This document shows positions 929 to 45,625 of a DNA stretch of 64,000 nt, one piece after another (the stretch's first letter is position 1; every line of letters starts with the position of its first letter). The notes under the pieces are model-generated. The model did no database searches and had not been told where the DNA came from. It was given only the letters and a program-made list of their open reading frames with translations. The position numbers and the translations under genes are program-made. Source of the stretch: an uncultured Poribacteria bacterium (GTDB taxonomy: Bacteria > Poribacteria > WGA-4E > WGA-3G); NCBI GenBank assembly GCA_951828385.1, contig OX639973.1:1364001-1428000 (forward strand), read 5' to 3'.

Positions 929-2416
929 ATGAATATTACTGTCAAAACGGGTGGATTTGCACAAGAGCAGAGCGATGTGATTGCCATCGGTGTGCTGGAG
1001 AATCCGGATTTCTATAGTGCCCCGCTCCAAACTATAGATCAGGCACTCGACGGACGCATTCGCGAACGCATGAATCTCGGCGATTTCACAGGCAAACTGA
1101 AAACCACCAGTTGGCTCTACACAAACGGCGCAATAACCGCACCTCGCGTGCTACTGGTGGGTTTGGGTGAGTATCATGACCTTACTGTTGAAAAAGTCCG
1201 TCAGACAGCCGGGCACGCGGTGCGGATGATCCGAGATATGGGTTTAACGAACGCCGCTGTTCCGATCCCTATTGAAGCTACGCCTGAAATGATACAAGCC
1301 GCAGCGGAAGCCAGTCTCCTTGCACTCTATCAGTTCGATGAACACAAAACGAGCAACGGCGATGAAGACGAAAAGAAAAAACTCGAATCCGTTACGTTCT
1401 TAGCGGAAAGTGATCAGAGTCAGGCGACAGTCGAAGCGGCAGTTCAGCGCGGAGAAGTGATCGCCAACGGCACACTGCTCGCCCGCGATCTAAGTAACCG
1501 ACCCGCAAACTATCTCACACCAACGCAACTCGCAGAAAAGGCAGAAGCAGTAGCAGAAGCAACAGGACTCGGTTGCGAAATTTTTGACAAAGCCACCTTA
1601 GAAGAAAAAGGGTTCCGCACAGTCCTCGCCGTCGCGCAAGGGAGTGCTGAAGAACCACGCTTTATTATTCTCGAATACACACCGGACGGCGAAGGACAAG
1701 ATACCGTTGTGCTTGTTGGAAAAGGGATTACTTTTGATACAGGTGGGATCTCAATCAAAGGTGGAAGCGGTATGCATGAGATGAAGCATGACATGTCCGG
1801 TGCCGCCGCGGTGATAGGCGCGATGCAAGTCATCGGTCAACTCAAACCGAACGTGCGTGTCATCGGCTTGGTTGCCGCGTCCGAAAATATGCCGAGTGGC
1901 ACTGCGGTTAAGCCGGGCGATGTCGTCACCTCTTATGGCGGTAAAACCATTGAGATTCTTAACACCGATGCTGAGGGACGACTGGTGTTAGCGGATGCGC
2001 TCGGGTGGACGGCGCAGTATAACCCGAAAGGTGTTATCGACTTAGCCACGCTCACCGGTGCCGTGATTGGTGCTTTAGGACATCTCGCAGCGGGGGCATT
2101 GGGAACAGATCCAGAACTCATGGCGAAAGTGAAATCGGCAGCTGAAAAAACGCATGAGCGCGTCTGGGAATTGCCGCTCTGGGATGATTACGATGAAGGC
2201 GTTAAAAGCAAAGTTGCGGATGTCCAAAACATCGGCGACGGCACGGCTGGCACGATTGCAGGTGCAGCGTTTCTGAAGAAGTTCGCAGAAGGCTATCCGT
2301 GGGTACACCTCGACATCGCTGGCACTGCGTGGGGGATGAAAGGCTCTACATATATCCCCGAAGGCGCGTCAGGCTACGGTGTCCGGTTGTTGGTGCAACT
2401 GGTGGAGGATTGGTAG
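929..2416 (+). CDS. pepA: Leucyl aminopeptidase, M17 family
   Basis: A 495-residue M17 metallo-aminopeptidase of normal length. The N-terminal macro-like domain (about residues 1-160) is followed by the catalytic domain with GKGITFDTGGISIK (Lys and Asp metal/substrate ligands near residues 265-280), the hallmark NTDAEGRL (about residue 345) and a C-terminal GYGVRLLVQL. It removes N-terminal residues from peptides in the cytoplasm using two metal ions. Start: ATG at 929 has GAAAGGAAA ahead of it. It converges on the lipoprotein gene at 2501-2941, with a strong hairpin between them. Confidence 0.96.
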   Translation: MNITVKTGGFAQEQSDVIAIGVLENPDFYSAPLQTIDQALDGRIRERMNLGDFTGKLKTTSWLYTNGAITAPRVLLVGLGEYHDLTVEKVRQTAGHAVRMIRDMGLTNAAVPIPIEATPEMIQAAAEASLLALYQFDEHKTSNGDEDEKKKLESVTFLAESDQSQATVEAAVQRGEVIANGTLLARDLSNRPANYLTPTQLAEKAEAVAEATGLGCEIFDKATLEEKGFRTVLAVAQGSAEEPRFIILEYTPDGEGQDTVVLVGKGITFDTGGISIKGGSGMHEMKHDMSGAAAVIGAMQVIGQLKPNVRVIGLVAASENMPSGTAVKPGDVVTSYGGKTIEILNTDAEGRLVLADALGWTAQYNPKGVIDLATLTGAVIGALGHLAAGALGTDPELMAKVKSAAEKTHERVWELPLWDDYDEGVKSKVADVQNIGDGTAGTIAGAAFLKKFAEGYPWVHLDIAGTAWGMKGSTYIPEGASGYGVRLLVQLVEDW

Positions 2417-13448: not shown

Positions 13449-15629
13449 TTAATTTTCTGACGCCTCATCAGCAATGTGCGCCTGCTTTGCCTGTCTTTCT
13501 CGTTTCCAAATTGTGATGGCAGCCGGAATCGTGCCTAAAATCAGCAATCCGAGACAGACCCATAGGGGCCAAACAATAGGCTGATTCCACGCTTGACGGC
13601 TTTCTGCCCGCTGACTGGCATCAATGCGGAGATACTTGAAGTTTCCACGCCCCAAGGCACTCGGTTTACTGTTCTTCAACCACTGATGCGACAAACCGAA
13701 AACGACAGGGTGATAGACAAAGACCCAAGGCGCATCGCGTTGTAACAGACGGTTCATTTCGCGAATGCGTGTCAACCGTTCCGGCGAGTTCTCCATGTTT
13801 TTCATCGTTTCAAAGAGCCGGTTGTATTCTGGATTATCGTAGTTGGCAGCATTTTCACCATCACGGAGTGCCTTACTATTCGGACCGTAGAGCAAGAATA
13901 GGAAATTTTCTGCATCGGGGTAGTCCGCATGCCACCCCCAGAAGATGATTTGGAAGTTCCCGTTTTTCACTTTGTCGCGAAATCGATTGTAATCGGTCGT
14001 GCGACTCTCCATCGTGATGCCGAGCTGCTCTAATTTATTTCGCATCCACGTTAAGCGGGACGTGGCACCTGCGGAATTCCACGTGTTATCAAAAGAGACA
14101 ATCAGCGGATTCCCCTTACTATCTTGTCCACCGGGGTAGCCTGCTTCTGCGAGAAGTTGGCGTGCTGCTTCAATAGATTTGCGGACCGGACGGTTGGTGC
14201 TTGCATCCCAGTCATAGATATACGGATTAATACCGGTCTCACCTGCTTCGTAGCCGAAAATACCCGGTGGCAGTGGACTGTGTGACGTAACACCACGTCC
14301 ATTGAGAAAGATTTCAATATACTCTTCGTAATCCAAGGCGATCGAAATCGCTTGGCGAAGTTTCTGCTTCTCTACGGTGTACCCACCGACAGTATCATCT
14401 AACATATTAAAAGCGAGATAGATAGTCGTCGGTTCTACGCTGGTGCGCAGCACGATATGTTTCGCTTTTAACGCCTCACTGGCTCGCGGATCCCCCGTAT
14501 CATTAAACGTAACGGCACTGTCAAATGTATCTGAAGAGATACCGGAACTATCGTAATAACCTTGCAAGAACTTATTCCAGCGCGGAATATATTCTTTTTC
14601 TAATTTGTAGACAACTTTCGGTATAAACGGGATAGTTTCCCACGCGTCGTCAAGCAGTCCAGCTTCTCTATCGCCGGGTTCTCCACCTGATGGGTAACGC
14701 TCAACCCGAAAATTCTCATTCTTAACGAGAACGATCTCCTTGTGTGCAAGGAGCGTTTCTATCCGATAGGCACCCGTTCCCACAGGAAACCTATCAATTG
14801 TGATGTTCCGATCCTTCATAACAGGTTGGCTGTAAAAATCAATCGCCTCTTTCGGCATCGGTGAAAAGAAGGGCATCGCTAACCAGTAGATAAACTGCGG
14901 ATATTTCGCTTTCAGGATCACCCGATAGGTGTAACGATCCACAACCGCTACACCCGGAAAGGCAGCCGCTTCCTGTCCGTTAGCAAGCGCAGCCGAGTAC
15001 GCTTCCATCCCAAGGATATAATCCTTCAATGTGCTAAGAATAGGGCAGCCGAGACGCGGATCCGCCATCCGTTTGATCTGGTAGACATAATCCGCTGCGC
15101 TCAATTCACGCGTCCCTGTCATCGGAAAATCTTTGATCTCGTTAAAACCCTTCACGTCTGCTTTTGTCAAGTCGTGGTACCGCAATACGCCACTTTCAGT
15201 CTTCGCGAAACAGGGGTGCGGCTGATACATAATACCCGGACGGATGCGAATCTCATACACAGCGCGCGCGACCGACGCTGCGGCGGCATCTGATGATAAC
15301 TGTTTTCCGTCAGTATCGTAATATCGGGGCTGTGGGACTGCCTCCGCTGTCAGTGGGATCAATTCGTATGGACGTTTCAGGTAATGATACCTTAAAGGCG
15401 GTTCATAAATCTGCTGGATGAAAGTGTATTCGTCTGAACTATAGGACACCGCCGGATCAAAGTGCTTCGGTTCTTCAGCAAACGTGCTGTAATAGATTTC
15501 CTCGTCCTGTTCAGATTTCGGATACGGATTATTCGGCACCCCACAACTCAGAAAAAAAGCGAGCACCATTAGGACGATGAAACATCTGCTCGAAAGCAAT
15601 GCCCTAAAATTGATAGGACTTACACACAC
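13449..15629 (-). CDS. ABC transporter substrate-binding lipoprotein, OppA/DppA family
   Basis: A large periplasmic binding protein (about 726 residues) for peptides or similar solutes. The N-terminus has a membrane segment and lipobox FFLSCG, so it is anchored as a lipoprotein. SBP_bac_5 features: FAEEPKHFDPAVSYSSDEY, a central RQAISIALDYEEYIEIFLNG (the family's conserved 'R-A-i-x-Aid' segment) and FQIIFWGWHADYPDAENFL. At the C-terminus a further membrane helix (WPLWVCLGLLILGTIPAAITIW) with a basic tail is unusual for a binding protein. The start is taken as GTG at 15629, downstream of a palindrome; longer in-frame starts at 15728 and 15758 would translate through the palindrome. Confidence 0.88.
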   Translation of the reverse strand: MCVSPINFRALLSSRCFIVLMVLAFFLSCGVPNNPYPKSEQDEEIYYSTFAEEPKHFDPAVSYSSDEYTFIQQIYEPPLRYHYLKRPYELIPLTAEAVPQPRYYDTDGKQLSSDAAAASVARAVYEIRIRPGIMYQPHPCFAKTESGVLRYHDLTKADVKGFNEIKDFPMTGTRELSAADYVYQIKRMADPRLGCPILSTLKDYILGMEAYSAALANGQEAAAFPGVAVVDRYTYRVILKAKYPQFIYWLAMPFFSPMPKEAIDFYSQPVMKDRNITIDRFPVGTGAYRIETLLAHKEIVLVKNENFRVERYPSGGEPGDREAGLLDDAWETIPFIPKVVYKLEKEYIPRWNKFLQGYYDSSGISSDTFDSAVTFNDTGDPRASEALKAKHIVLRTSVEPTTIYLAFNMLDDTVGGYTVEKQKLRQAISIALDYEEYIEIFLNGRGVTSHSPLPPGIFGYEAGETGINPYIYDWDASTNRPVRKSIEAARQLLAEAGYPGGQDSKGNPLIVSFDNTWNSAGATSRLTWMRNKLEQLGITMESRTTDYNRFRDKVKNGNFQIIFWGWHADYPDAENFLFLLYGPNSKALRDGENAANYDNPEYNRLFETMKNMENSPERLTRIREMNRLLQRDAPWVFVYHPVVFGLSHQWLKNSKPSALGRGNFKYLRIDASQRAESRQAWNQPIVWPLWVCLGLLILGTIPAAITIWKRERQAKQAHIADEASEN

Positions 15630-15638
15630 CCCCTGGTA

Positions 15639-15659
15639 GGTGCGGTTTCTAACCGCACC
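15639..15659. repeat. Palindromic repeat at the 5' end of the binding-protein gene
   Basis: A perfect 9-bp stem GGTGCGGTT/AACCGCACC with TCT loop, flanked by GTA and the GAG motif. It sits just upstream of the likely GTG start of the binding-protein gene and was counted as coding in the longest frame. Confidence 0.7.
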
Positions 15660-15801
15660 GAGCCCGTGGCAGCAACGGATATTGGTATCTGTAAATAAGG
15701 GAACCTCTTCAATATTGATTCTTCGCATTGTGGTGTGATGTTTCAATAATTTTATCATCTTCTTGTAGAAATACGCCTTTTTTTACAGGCAAAACGGTAT
15801 C

Positions 15802-16848
15802 CTAAAACGCATATAGAGCTGTCAAGGAGACCAAAGGACCAAATTCAAAAGCATCGCTCTCTTCATAAAGCGTTCTCTGGCTCAAGGGGAACATCACTGT
15901 CACAGATAACGGGATGTTATAAGGTGTCACAACCGATGCCCCGACAGATGCCATGCTGAAAAGGAGCCCGGTATTGATGTCCAACTCTCCTGCCCAATAG
16001 GCATAGGACTGATAAAAACCAAGGTAACTTGTCTGGAATGAAATCCAGTCATTCAAACGGTAATTCAGACCGGCTGTGTAAGTCAGTTCCCTTGAACCGC
16101 GATAGGTTTTGTTGTTTTCATAGAATGGAAACTTTCCACGAACACTCGCGCTCATTGCCAACCCATTGTAGAGAGGAAGGCTGTAATGCAGGTCTACGCT
16201 CGGATTAAAAGTTCCAGTACCGAACTGGATATGGAGGTGCTCAAGCCCATTATTTCCTAACTTCCATGGATCTTCTTCTGTCTTACCAAATGGGATTGTC
16301 GTCCCGATACGCGCCATCAAAAAATCGCTATCTTTTAGTAACCCGTGCGTATGATACCCCAATAGAATATCTGCATCAGCGAGTCCGATATAGGTCTCAT
16401 TTCGATGATGATTATTCTGATTGCGTAAAATCGCTTCCCGTTGTACCTGCGTGATCTGCTCAATCTCCTCAATAGTTGCCTCTTGGATTTTGGTCTCGTA
16501 CGGCACATTTGCTTCCAGGGTCCACTCTGAAGCGAACTGATACTTCAACCCGATATCAACGCGAAAAATGTTTAGTTTAACATGATGGCGATGAAGCGGC
16601 ACCTCTATGACTTTCCCGTCTGGAGAGACACCTTTTGCTTCTTCATGTCCACCTTGTGCGTCAAACCACCGCATCATACTCAAAGAACTCTGGAATCTCT
16701 TCATCTCTCCTGAAGCCAAACTGACTTCACCAATCCCGCCACGTGGAATCGCGGGATTGCTTCAGGCACCTCAGCTCTCTTGGACAAAGCCGAGCGGGAG
16801 AAGGATGAATTGAAGGCAGAATAGGAGATAAAAAATCCGAATCATCAT
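15802..16848 (-). CDS. Outer-membrane-barrel-like protein with two in-frame UGA codons (selenoprotein candidate or broken gene)
   Basis: Read from ATG 16848 (which overlaps the aldo/keto reductase stop as ATGA) the frame gives a signal peptide, MMIRIFYLLFCLQFILLPLG FVQES, then UGA (16773-16771), Gly-Ala, UGA (16764-16762), SNPAIPRGGIGEVSLASGEM and an uninterrupted frame to 15802 (348 codons in all). The body has a beta-barrel look: alternating strands, HRNETYIGLADADILLGY, GTTIPFGKTEEDP, an aromatic C-terminal residue (LYAF). The spacing U-x-x-U replaces what should be a CxxC ahead of SNPxxP. A 9-bp hairpin begins two bases after the second UGA and its apical loop starts with G, 20 bases after the first UGA. 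Alternatives: two nonsense changes, or a palindrome insertion. Without readthrough the product has no signal peptide and no good ribosome site. Confidence 0.6.
16731..16759 (-). promoter_or_regulatory. Hairpin beside the second UGA, bSECIS-like candidate
   Basis: CAAUCCCGC pairs with GCGGGAUUG (9 bp) around an 11-base loop GAUUCCACGUG that begins with G. It may direct selenocysteine insertion, or be an ordinary genomic palindrome. Confidence 0.4.
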
Positions 16849-17795
16849 AAGGGGTTACTATCCATTTCTAAGTTAAGCCATTGCATCTCATCATCAGAGA
16901 GTTCAAGGCTCATTGCGCCGAGTGAGGAATCCATTTCATCTAAAGTCGCGGGACCAACAATCGGGAAAACTGGGAAAGAAATATTCAAGCAATATGCGAG
17001 AGAGACTTGAATTGGGGAATAGCCGTATTTTTCGCCTAATTTTTTTGCGCGTGCAAGCCTCTCAAAGTTTTCGTCATTGTAATAGACGCGCACCATATCT
17101 CCGTTATCAGGGTTCTCTGCTGTAAAAGCACCGCTAAAGAAGCCGCGCGCTTGCGAAGACCACGGCATCAACGGAAACTGGCTCTCCTGATGCCATGCGC
17201 GTGCGGCATCATCAACGCAGACGCATCCGCCCCACATCGGTTCCATCGGCACAGCGAGACTAATATTATTGCTGCAGGAGACAAAACCCGCAAGTCCGTT
17301 TTCACTTGCATAAGCGTTCGCATCAATGATACGTTGCGGTTGCCAGTTCGAGGCAGCAATGGCACGGATGCGTCCAGCTCCTATCTCTTCGTTCAGATAA
17401 TCAATAATCGTACGCACCGGAATGACAGGGTCATCGCGATGGAGCATGTAAAGATCGATATAATCAGTCCGGAGTCGTGCAATGCTTTCATCAAGATCGG
17501 CTTTGAGTTCTTCAGGTGAGAGACGCGGGCGTGGCACTCTACCTTGTGGGTGTCCACCTTTATCAATGAGAAAAACATCGCCTCGGTTCCCACGTTGCCG
17601 CATCCAGAGTCCTATTAACATCTCACTATCACCACCGCCATAGCCGTGTGCGGTATCAAGCGCATTCCCACCCGCTTCAAAAAATGCGTCAAGCATTTCA
17701 GTGCTATAGTCGAATTTCGTAGGCGAAAACATCATGCTGCCCAGAATCAGGTGGGAGATGTCTTTGCTGACGCCGGGAATCTTTATGTGTTTCAT
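16845..17795 (-). CDS. Aldo/keto reductase family protein
   Basis: A 316-residue NAD(P)H-dependent oxidoreductase with a TIM barrel. Catalytic tetrad residues can be seen: D and Y in ALDTAHGYGGGDSE (about 42-55), K in FLIDKGG (about 72) and H in IDLYMLHRDD (about 111). SNWQPQRI and the C-terminal VGPATLDEMDSSL (NADP-binding) are family marks. The start ATG at 17795 (MKHIKIPG) fits better than 17828. The substrate is unknown. Its stop overlaps the start of the barrel-like gene (ATGA), so the two are translationally coupled. Confidence 0.9.
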   Translation of the reverse strand: MKHIKIPGVSKDISHLILGSMMFSPTKFDYSTEMLDAFFEAGGNALDTAHGYGGGDSEMLIGLWMRQRGNRGDVFLIDKGGHPQGRVPRPRLSPEELKADLDESIARLRTDYIDLYMLHRDDPVIPVRTIIDYLNEEIGAGRIRAIAASNWQPQRIIDANAYASENGLAGFVSCSNNISLAVPMEPMWGGCVCVDDAARAWHQESQFPLMPWSSQARGFFSGAFTAENPDNGDMVRVYYNDENFERLARAKKLGEKYGYSPIQVSLAYCLNISFPVFPIVGPATLDEMDSSLGAMSLELSDDEMQWLNLEMDSNPL

Positions 17796-18187
17796 TAAAA
17801 AACAGTGTCCTTTTCTTCTTATAGGCATACGAGTCGTGCCCTTTGGAATTTATTGCGTACTCTACAGAATACATGGAAATTATAACAGACTTCTCACTTT
17901 AAAATCCACAAGAAAATATATTCATCACGGGTGCTTAGTTTCAGTTCTCCAATAATTTCGTTCTTTCATTGGTAGGCTTTTCGCTGTAGGAACGCCCTTC
18001 GCGTCATGTTCGGTAGATGGGATTTCCAAATCCTGACTGAAAACTGAAGGGTGTCACTGTTTTAAGAGTTGTAAGACCTCTCTGTGCCCGCATGCTGTCA
18101 TCGTCTTCCACGCGGCATCGCGGGCTTTTGGCGTTGCATCGCAGCCCCACCCTACAGGCGCGGTCGCTCGCGATACGACTTTTTTCT
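17796..18187. other. Gene-free intergenic region
   Basis: About 390 bases between divergent genes. It holds a small hairpin GGATTT-CC-AAATCC (about 18011-18030) and repeat-like fragments (GTAGGAACGCCC, TGACTGAAAACTGAAG) like those in other gaps. No gene is supported. Confidence 0.5.
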
Positions 18188-45430: not shown

Positions 45431-45460
45431 TTTTGGGGTCCTATGGGGTATCTTAATAAC

Positions 45461-45496
45461 AAAAAAGCCTCTCCCGTCTGATGTGACGAGAAAGGC
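45461..45496 (-). terminator. pyr leader attenuator terminator
   Basis: GCCUUUCUCGUC pairs fully with GACGGGAGAGGC (12 pairs, ACAUCA loop) followed by six U, 30 bases before pyrR. A longer frame for pyrR would have to translate it. Confidence 0.9.
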
Positions 45497-45564
45497 ATCA
45501 TCCAACTAATTCCGATGGACAATCTAAACTTTGGGTCCGATTCTGATTGTGATCTTGCATCCTT

Positions 45565-45594
45565 TTTTCAACCTCTCTGGATTGGATTAAAAAG
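45565..45594 (-). promoter_or_regulatory. PyrR-binding anti-antiterminator loop
   Basis: On the minus strand AAUCCAGAGAGGUU (45570-45583) fits the PyrR consensus ARUCCNGNGAGGYU exactly: stem AAUC/GGUU and hexaloop CAGAGA. A lower stem CCUUUUU/AAAAAAGG lies around it. Together with the downstream terminator this is a PyrR-type attenuator. Confidence 0.88.
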
Positions 45595-45625
45595 GTTTTA
45601 ACACGAACGCTCCATTTATCCTTAT

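Follow-up and report, generated by a model that had tools for sequence, protein, structure and literature searches.

The locus examined here raises the question of whether a reading frame interrupted by two UGA codons just after a signal peptide encodes a selenoprotein or is a doubly broken gene. The window, a stretch of 64,000 nucleotides, belongs to a 6.66-Mb single-contig genome of Candidatus Poribacteria (G000), and the coding sequence, established by direct reading and by full-length homologues, occupies positions 15802..16848 of the (−) strand (348 amino acids, stop TAG), with the layout signal peptide, U26-G-A-U29 and beta-barrel. Translated from 16848 to 15802 (−), it reads MMIRIFYLLFCLQFILLPLGFVQES-UGA-GA-UGA-SNPAIPR... 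and continues for more than 300 sense codons to the TAG; the residues around the motif are ...GFVQES-U-GA-U-SNPAIPR.... The only two internal stops are both UGA, with codon 1 (putative Sec26) at 16771..16773 (−) and codon 2 (putative Sec29) at 16762..16764 (−). An earlier, sequence-only reading had described an ATG at 16848 coupled (ATGA) to the stop of an aldo/keto reductase, followed by a UGA pair spaced as CxxC, SNPAIPR and a long frame free of any other stop type, all of which is borne out by direct reading. The signal peptide that it placed before the UGAs is retained as residues 1–22 (16783..16848 (−)) on the basis of the homologue alignment, in which signal peptides end ...FA/QES-U, ...LWA/QG-U or ...VYA/QG-U (the slash marking the cleavage site). 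Cleavage in the window copy would accordingly fall before Q23 (GF[AV]/QES), making the first Sec approximately mature residue 3–4 and placing U-x-A-U at about mature residues 3–7. Mechanical ORF calling yields just a truncated ORF of 305 amino acids that starts at TTG 16719, and such truncation by simple ORF calling helps to explain how the gene could escape the catalogues.

Of the 85 Poribacteria genomes, 67 contain homologues of the two-Sec barrel, and in nearly every case a TGA lies within the gene. In the intact Poribacteria copies that were read, site 1 is UGA or Cys and site 2 is UGA: the main clade carries U-G-A-U, a paralogue clade carries C-P-A-U (with a copy in the window's own genome at C1:4581495-4582538), and one recent copy carries C-S-A-U. 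A second phylum-level group outside Poribacteria has UPAU, UPGU or UAAU, and three genomes of the family Saprospiraceae have CPAC, with Cys at both sites. No codons other than UGA or Cys stand at either site in any intact copy that was read, so that an alignment at these positions, suggested as a check by the sequence-only reading, does return Cys (CPAU, CSAU and CPAC). When the labels UU, CU and CC were placed on a tree of 46 rows built without the motif, three changes were required, compared with a mean of 10.4 for shuffled labels, indicating that Sec and Cys have been swapped at the pair at least three times. About 100 distinct homologous windows, almost all of them poribacterial, have UGAs at the same sites, in agreement with the earlier argument that such a pair is unlikely to arise by chance, and the recurrence of these UGAs in independent assemblies shows that they are not sequencing errors. 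With a dN/dS of 0.12–0.14 after the UGAs, the gene is under purifying selection.

The machinery needed to decode UGA as selenocysteine is present in the window's genome: SelA was detected with E=4e-157 and SelB with 355 bits (above cut-off), a tRNA-Sec with anticodon UCA adjoins selB, and selD lies at G000:C1:1330118-1331041. The earlier remark that no Sec machinery is visible thus holds for the window but not for the genome, in which it sits elsewhere. The selD gene itself contains an in-frame UGA, at the known UxxK site. More widely, SelB exceeds the cut-off in 76 of the 85 genomes of the phylum and in the draft UPAU genome G100, the one genome of the second group that was checked; the draft CPAC genome G099, the one Saprospiraceae genome checked, has no SelB above the cut-off. 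Three of the features by which bacterial selenoproteins are recognized, namely a conserved in-frame UGA with coding conservation downstream, Cys at the UGA sites of homologues, and Sec machinery, are found here. The equivalence of UGA and Cys at each site, the conserved SECIS-like hairpin described below and the genomic Sec machinery are comparative evidence that SelB and Sec-tRNA insert selenocysteine at both UGAs, giving a secreted, beta-barrel outer-membrane selenoprotein; we put the probability at about 0.93, a figure that refers to Sec decoding of both UGAs and not to the function of the barrel protein.

Three other accounts of the UGA codons were weighed against Sec decoding. That two nonsense mutations have turned the gene into a decaying pseudogene would fit the two in-frame stops and the degraded second copies present in some genomes (G045, G068 and G038), but identical UGAs stand in about 100 distinct homologues, dN/dS is 0.12 after the stops, the sites hold only UGA or Cys, and Sec machinery is present; conservation and dN/dS together rule out both a pseudogene and an assembly error, and we regard decay as extremely improbable. 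Of the two possibilities left open by the sequence-only reading, a UxxU selenoprotein or a doubly broken gene, the former is thus supported by UGA/Cys equivalence, machinery, conservation and dN/dS. Reading of UGA without Sec, through near-cognate read-through or as Cys, Trp or Gly, is also very unlikely: UGA terminates other genes here, such as the aldo/keto reductase, SelB and tRNA-Sec occur in nearly all genomes that carry the barrel gene, and the SECIS-like hairpin accompanies UGA and is gone with Cys, which is the sole replacement. Scarcely more probable is the notion that the UGAs act mainly as a selenium-responsive switch, with Sec inserted if selenium is available and otherwise a stop that also regulates the downstream genes. 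The position of two UGAs just after the signal peptide would tie expression strongly to Sec supply, as such a switch demands, but the Cys forms retain the whole protein without any switch and the downstream gene is not kept across the family. That gene, an SBP_bac_5 solute-binding protein at 13449..15758 (−), is a neighbour kept in the genus but not conserved across barrel family loci, and is probably not part of the system.

The sequence-only reading had proposed a 9-bp hairpin shortly after the second UGA as the SECIS element. This hairpin exists, at 16759-16731 (16731..16759 (−), hairpin 1), and has a folding energy of −16.1 kcal/mol in the window copy, but it does not behave as a conserved SECIS: across 64 sequences, only 77% of cells are paired, and the CPAU clade does not keep the hairpin. 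Its loop is 11 nt long or, counted as the inner loop, pyrimidine-rich and without G at its start. Hairpin 1 was dropped as the conserved SECIS because its pairs are poorly kept relative to those of a second hairpin further downstream, UGAAGUC-[AGUUU]-GGCUUCA at 16711..16729 (−) (hairpin 2), which we propose as the better SECIS candidate on the grounds of covariation and synonymous constraint. Across the 64 sequences, 96% of cells are paired in hairpin 2 and compensatory changes are seen, and in 36 distinct sequences from both phylum-level groups double changes occur in all seven pairs (31 cells), a count matched by none of 500 shuffles, while the loop G is invariant; because seven second-group rows were aligned manually to the homologous position, the 36-sequence count leans somewhat towards structure, whereas the 64-sequence count is free of that bias. 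Codons 41–46, which cover most of hairpin 2, have a synonymous conservation of 0.87 compared with a mean of 0.48, ranking first among the 316 windows of the gene. Hairpin 2 was not found in the three Saprospiraceae CPAC genes. One divergent UGAU copy (L073, G064:C499) lacks the standard hairpin 2; in its stead a hairpin with CGUGC as its loop lies at a shifted position.

In the bSECIS model of Zhang and Gladyshev, the apical loop has the form N1-G-[G/U]-N-N2 and lies 16–37 nt from the UGA (PMC13188914). The loop of hairpin 2 (A-GUU-U) fits this pattern, but its G, at 16721, is 40 nt after the second UGA and 49 nt after the first, outside the canonical range and with a separate hairpin between. 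Among homologues the spacing is mostly 40–46 nt, and 34 nt in one locus (L204). The minimum free energy is −7.2 kcal/mol for the bare 19-mer and −8.0 kcal/mol with two flanking bases, relative to a bSECIS threshold of ≤ −7.5. One distal SECIS, hairpin 2, would probably serve both UGAs, with hairpin 1 possibly acting as a spacer. Compared with synonymous controls the spacer folds more stably, with mean z values of −1.8 for UU copies and −2.4 for CU copies, and it may thereby bring UGA and SECIS effectively closer together; the spacer of the CPAC genes likewise folds slightly better than controls, in three sequences only. In several poribacterial selD genes, a hairpin with the AGUU loop of hairpin 2, a SECIS candidate, lies 17 nt after the UGA. 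Across Poribacteria, the loops of the hairpins that follow selD UGAs read AGUU or CGGGN, a hint as to SelB specificity in these bacteria.

AlphaFold2 predicts a beta-barrel (pLDDT 77, pTM 0.73), with mostly low confidence for residues 16–48 and pLDDT below 50 for the N-terminal arm. The best matches among solved structures are the COG4313 channel (4rl8, Z 24.3) and FapF (Z 23.3). The likeness to FapF and to COG4313/Phenol_MetA_deg channels resides in the barrel fold, whereas identity is only 10–14% and the Pfam model PF13557 (Phenol_MetA_deg) scores 17.9, below its gathering score of 22 bits; no Pfam family exceeds its cut-off, and no NCBIfam model (June 2026) matches the window protein or any of three homologues at E ≤ 1. 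Two other families, GSU2204/MtrB-PioB-like (NF041027) and the TonB receptor FCYXU (NF049945), share a predicted Sec in an outer-membrane beta-barrel, but each has one Sec, in contrast to the two of the present family, and they belong to other barrel families. The UxxU metal-binding family NF041115 and selenoproteins of the MerT/CopZ type share UxxU and a soft-metal context, but are HMA-type proteins rather than outer-membrane barrels and have no similarity to the window protein. The 2026 review of prokaryotic selenoproteins lists 119 families in its Table 1, including UxxU proteins and two kinds of outer-membrane barrel (PMC13188914), and none of the 119 fits the two-Sec barrel. We regard it as a new selenoprotein family with an unusual SECIS arrangement.

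The gene neighbourhoods give indications of function. The translationally coupled upstream gene encodes an aldo/keto reductase (PF00248 by Pfam match, 16845..17828 (−)). In each of the 26 close-relative loci (L093-L118) the reductase gene adjoins the barrel gene with the order unchanged, and most of the family's remaining clade-A loci show this arrangement too. The window copy has aldo/keto-reductase and ABC-transporter neighbours and no adjoining metal gene. Elsewhere, the cluster of the CPAU paralogue encodes a YHS-like protein, a CusB-like protein with heavy-metal-binding domains (HMBD), an outer-membrane efflux protein (OEP) and a large pump that was recognized by eye as RND-type. The Saprospiraceae CPAC gene comes after an HMA-thioredoxin, with a CsoR-type repressor further upstream in one case; CsoR/MerR and HMA-thioredoxin genes are near the barrel gene in L171 and L172, the order in L172 being MerR, HMA-thioredoxin and then the UPAU barrel gene; and two other poribacterial loci (L175 and L176) have a BlaI/CopY-like regulator, accompanied in L175 by a YHS-like protein, both recognized by eye.

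These metal-type neighbours (CusB/HMBD, RND pump, YHS-like, CsoR, MerR, HMA-thioredoxin and BlaI/CopY-like) favour a role in binding and export of soft metals. U-x-A-U would form a flexible arm, on the periplasmic side, at the N-terminus of the modelled, porin-like barrel, a channel resembling COG4313 and FapF; its selenolate pair, reversibly a diselenide, would bind a soft metal ion such as Cu(I), Ag(I) or Hg(II), and the bound metal would be passed out through or past the barrel beside the RND-type efflux system or the HMA-thioredoxin partner. That the selenolate pair binds a soft metal and helps to export it has, in our judgement, an even chance of being correct. The main rival, which concerns the metal function and not Sec decoding, is that the pair is a redox-active diselenide acting on substrates or partners at the outer membrane and not a metal ligand. 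CxxC/UxxU spacing, which the pair has, is a classic redox motif, and the HMA-thioredoxin partner in L171, L172, L185 and L186 is a redox protein, as is the aldo/keto reductase coupled to the window copy; set against this, the protein lacks a thioredoxin fold, its motif lies on an N-terminus that is flexible, and the regulators and partners encoded nearby are specific to metals (CsoR, MerR, HMA, CusB/HMBD, YHS-like). We therefore prefer the soft-metal reading and consider the redox role possible but rather unlikely. The full picture, in which channels in several phyla carry a mature-N-terminal selenolate arm that captures metal for copper- or mercury-type efflux, with both Sec residues inserted through a single distal SECIS held at its spacing by the intervening hairpin, is more tentative than soft-metal binding and export by themselves; if true, it would amount to a selenium-based relay for metals outside the cytoplasm and would add a new SECIS architecture.

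With this uncatalogued double-Sec family the prokaryotic selenoproteome is enlarged in sponge symbionts that are uncultured and in one or more further phylum-level groups, and Sec is put on an outer-membrane barrel, a place where selenoproteins are rare. The position of hairpin 2 challenges the spacing rule used in SECIS finders, and the neighbouring genes point to a use of selenium chemistry for handling metals at the cell surface. We found no paper on Poribacteria selenoproteins in the open-licence literature. SelA and SelB are enriched in sponge symbionts (PMC5649159), and the two-Sec barrel family may help to account for that enrichment.

Several further observations were made. In L172, the HMA-thioredoxin fusion directly upstream of the UPAU barrel gene (1025-1738 (+)) has two in-frame UGAs of its own in the metal motif (GMT-U-PSG-U), making it a candidate for a further selenoprotein; its HMA part resembles NF041115. 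In the window's genome no full homologue of this partner was found, and the partial matches were thioredoxin-like only. One barrel homologue (L046, G029:C5:4400-5479) has a third UGA in place of a conserved Trp codon (MRWF to MRUF), which is either an assembly error or real damage, and the fragmented or frameshifted copies at G045:C1:1198170-1198783, G068:C20:9090-10115 and G038:C2:632590-633145 are apparently decaying. Elsewhere in the window, at 45458-45598 (−), an Rfam PyrR binding site scores 55.1 against a gathering score of 54 (E 8e-5).
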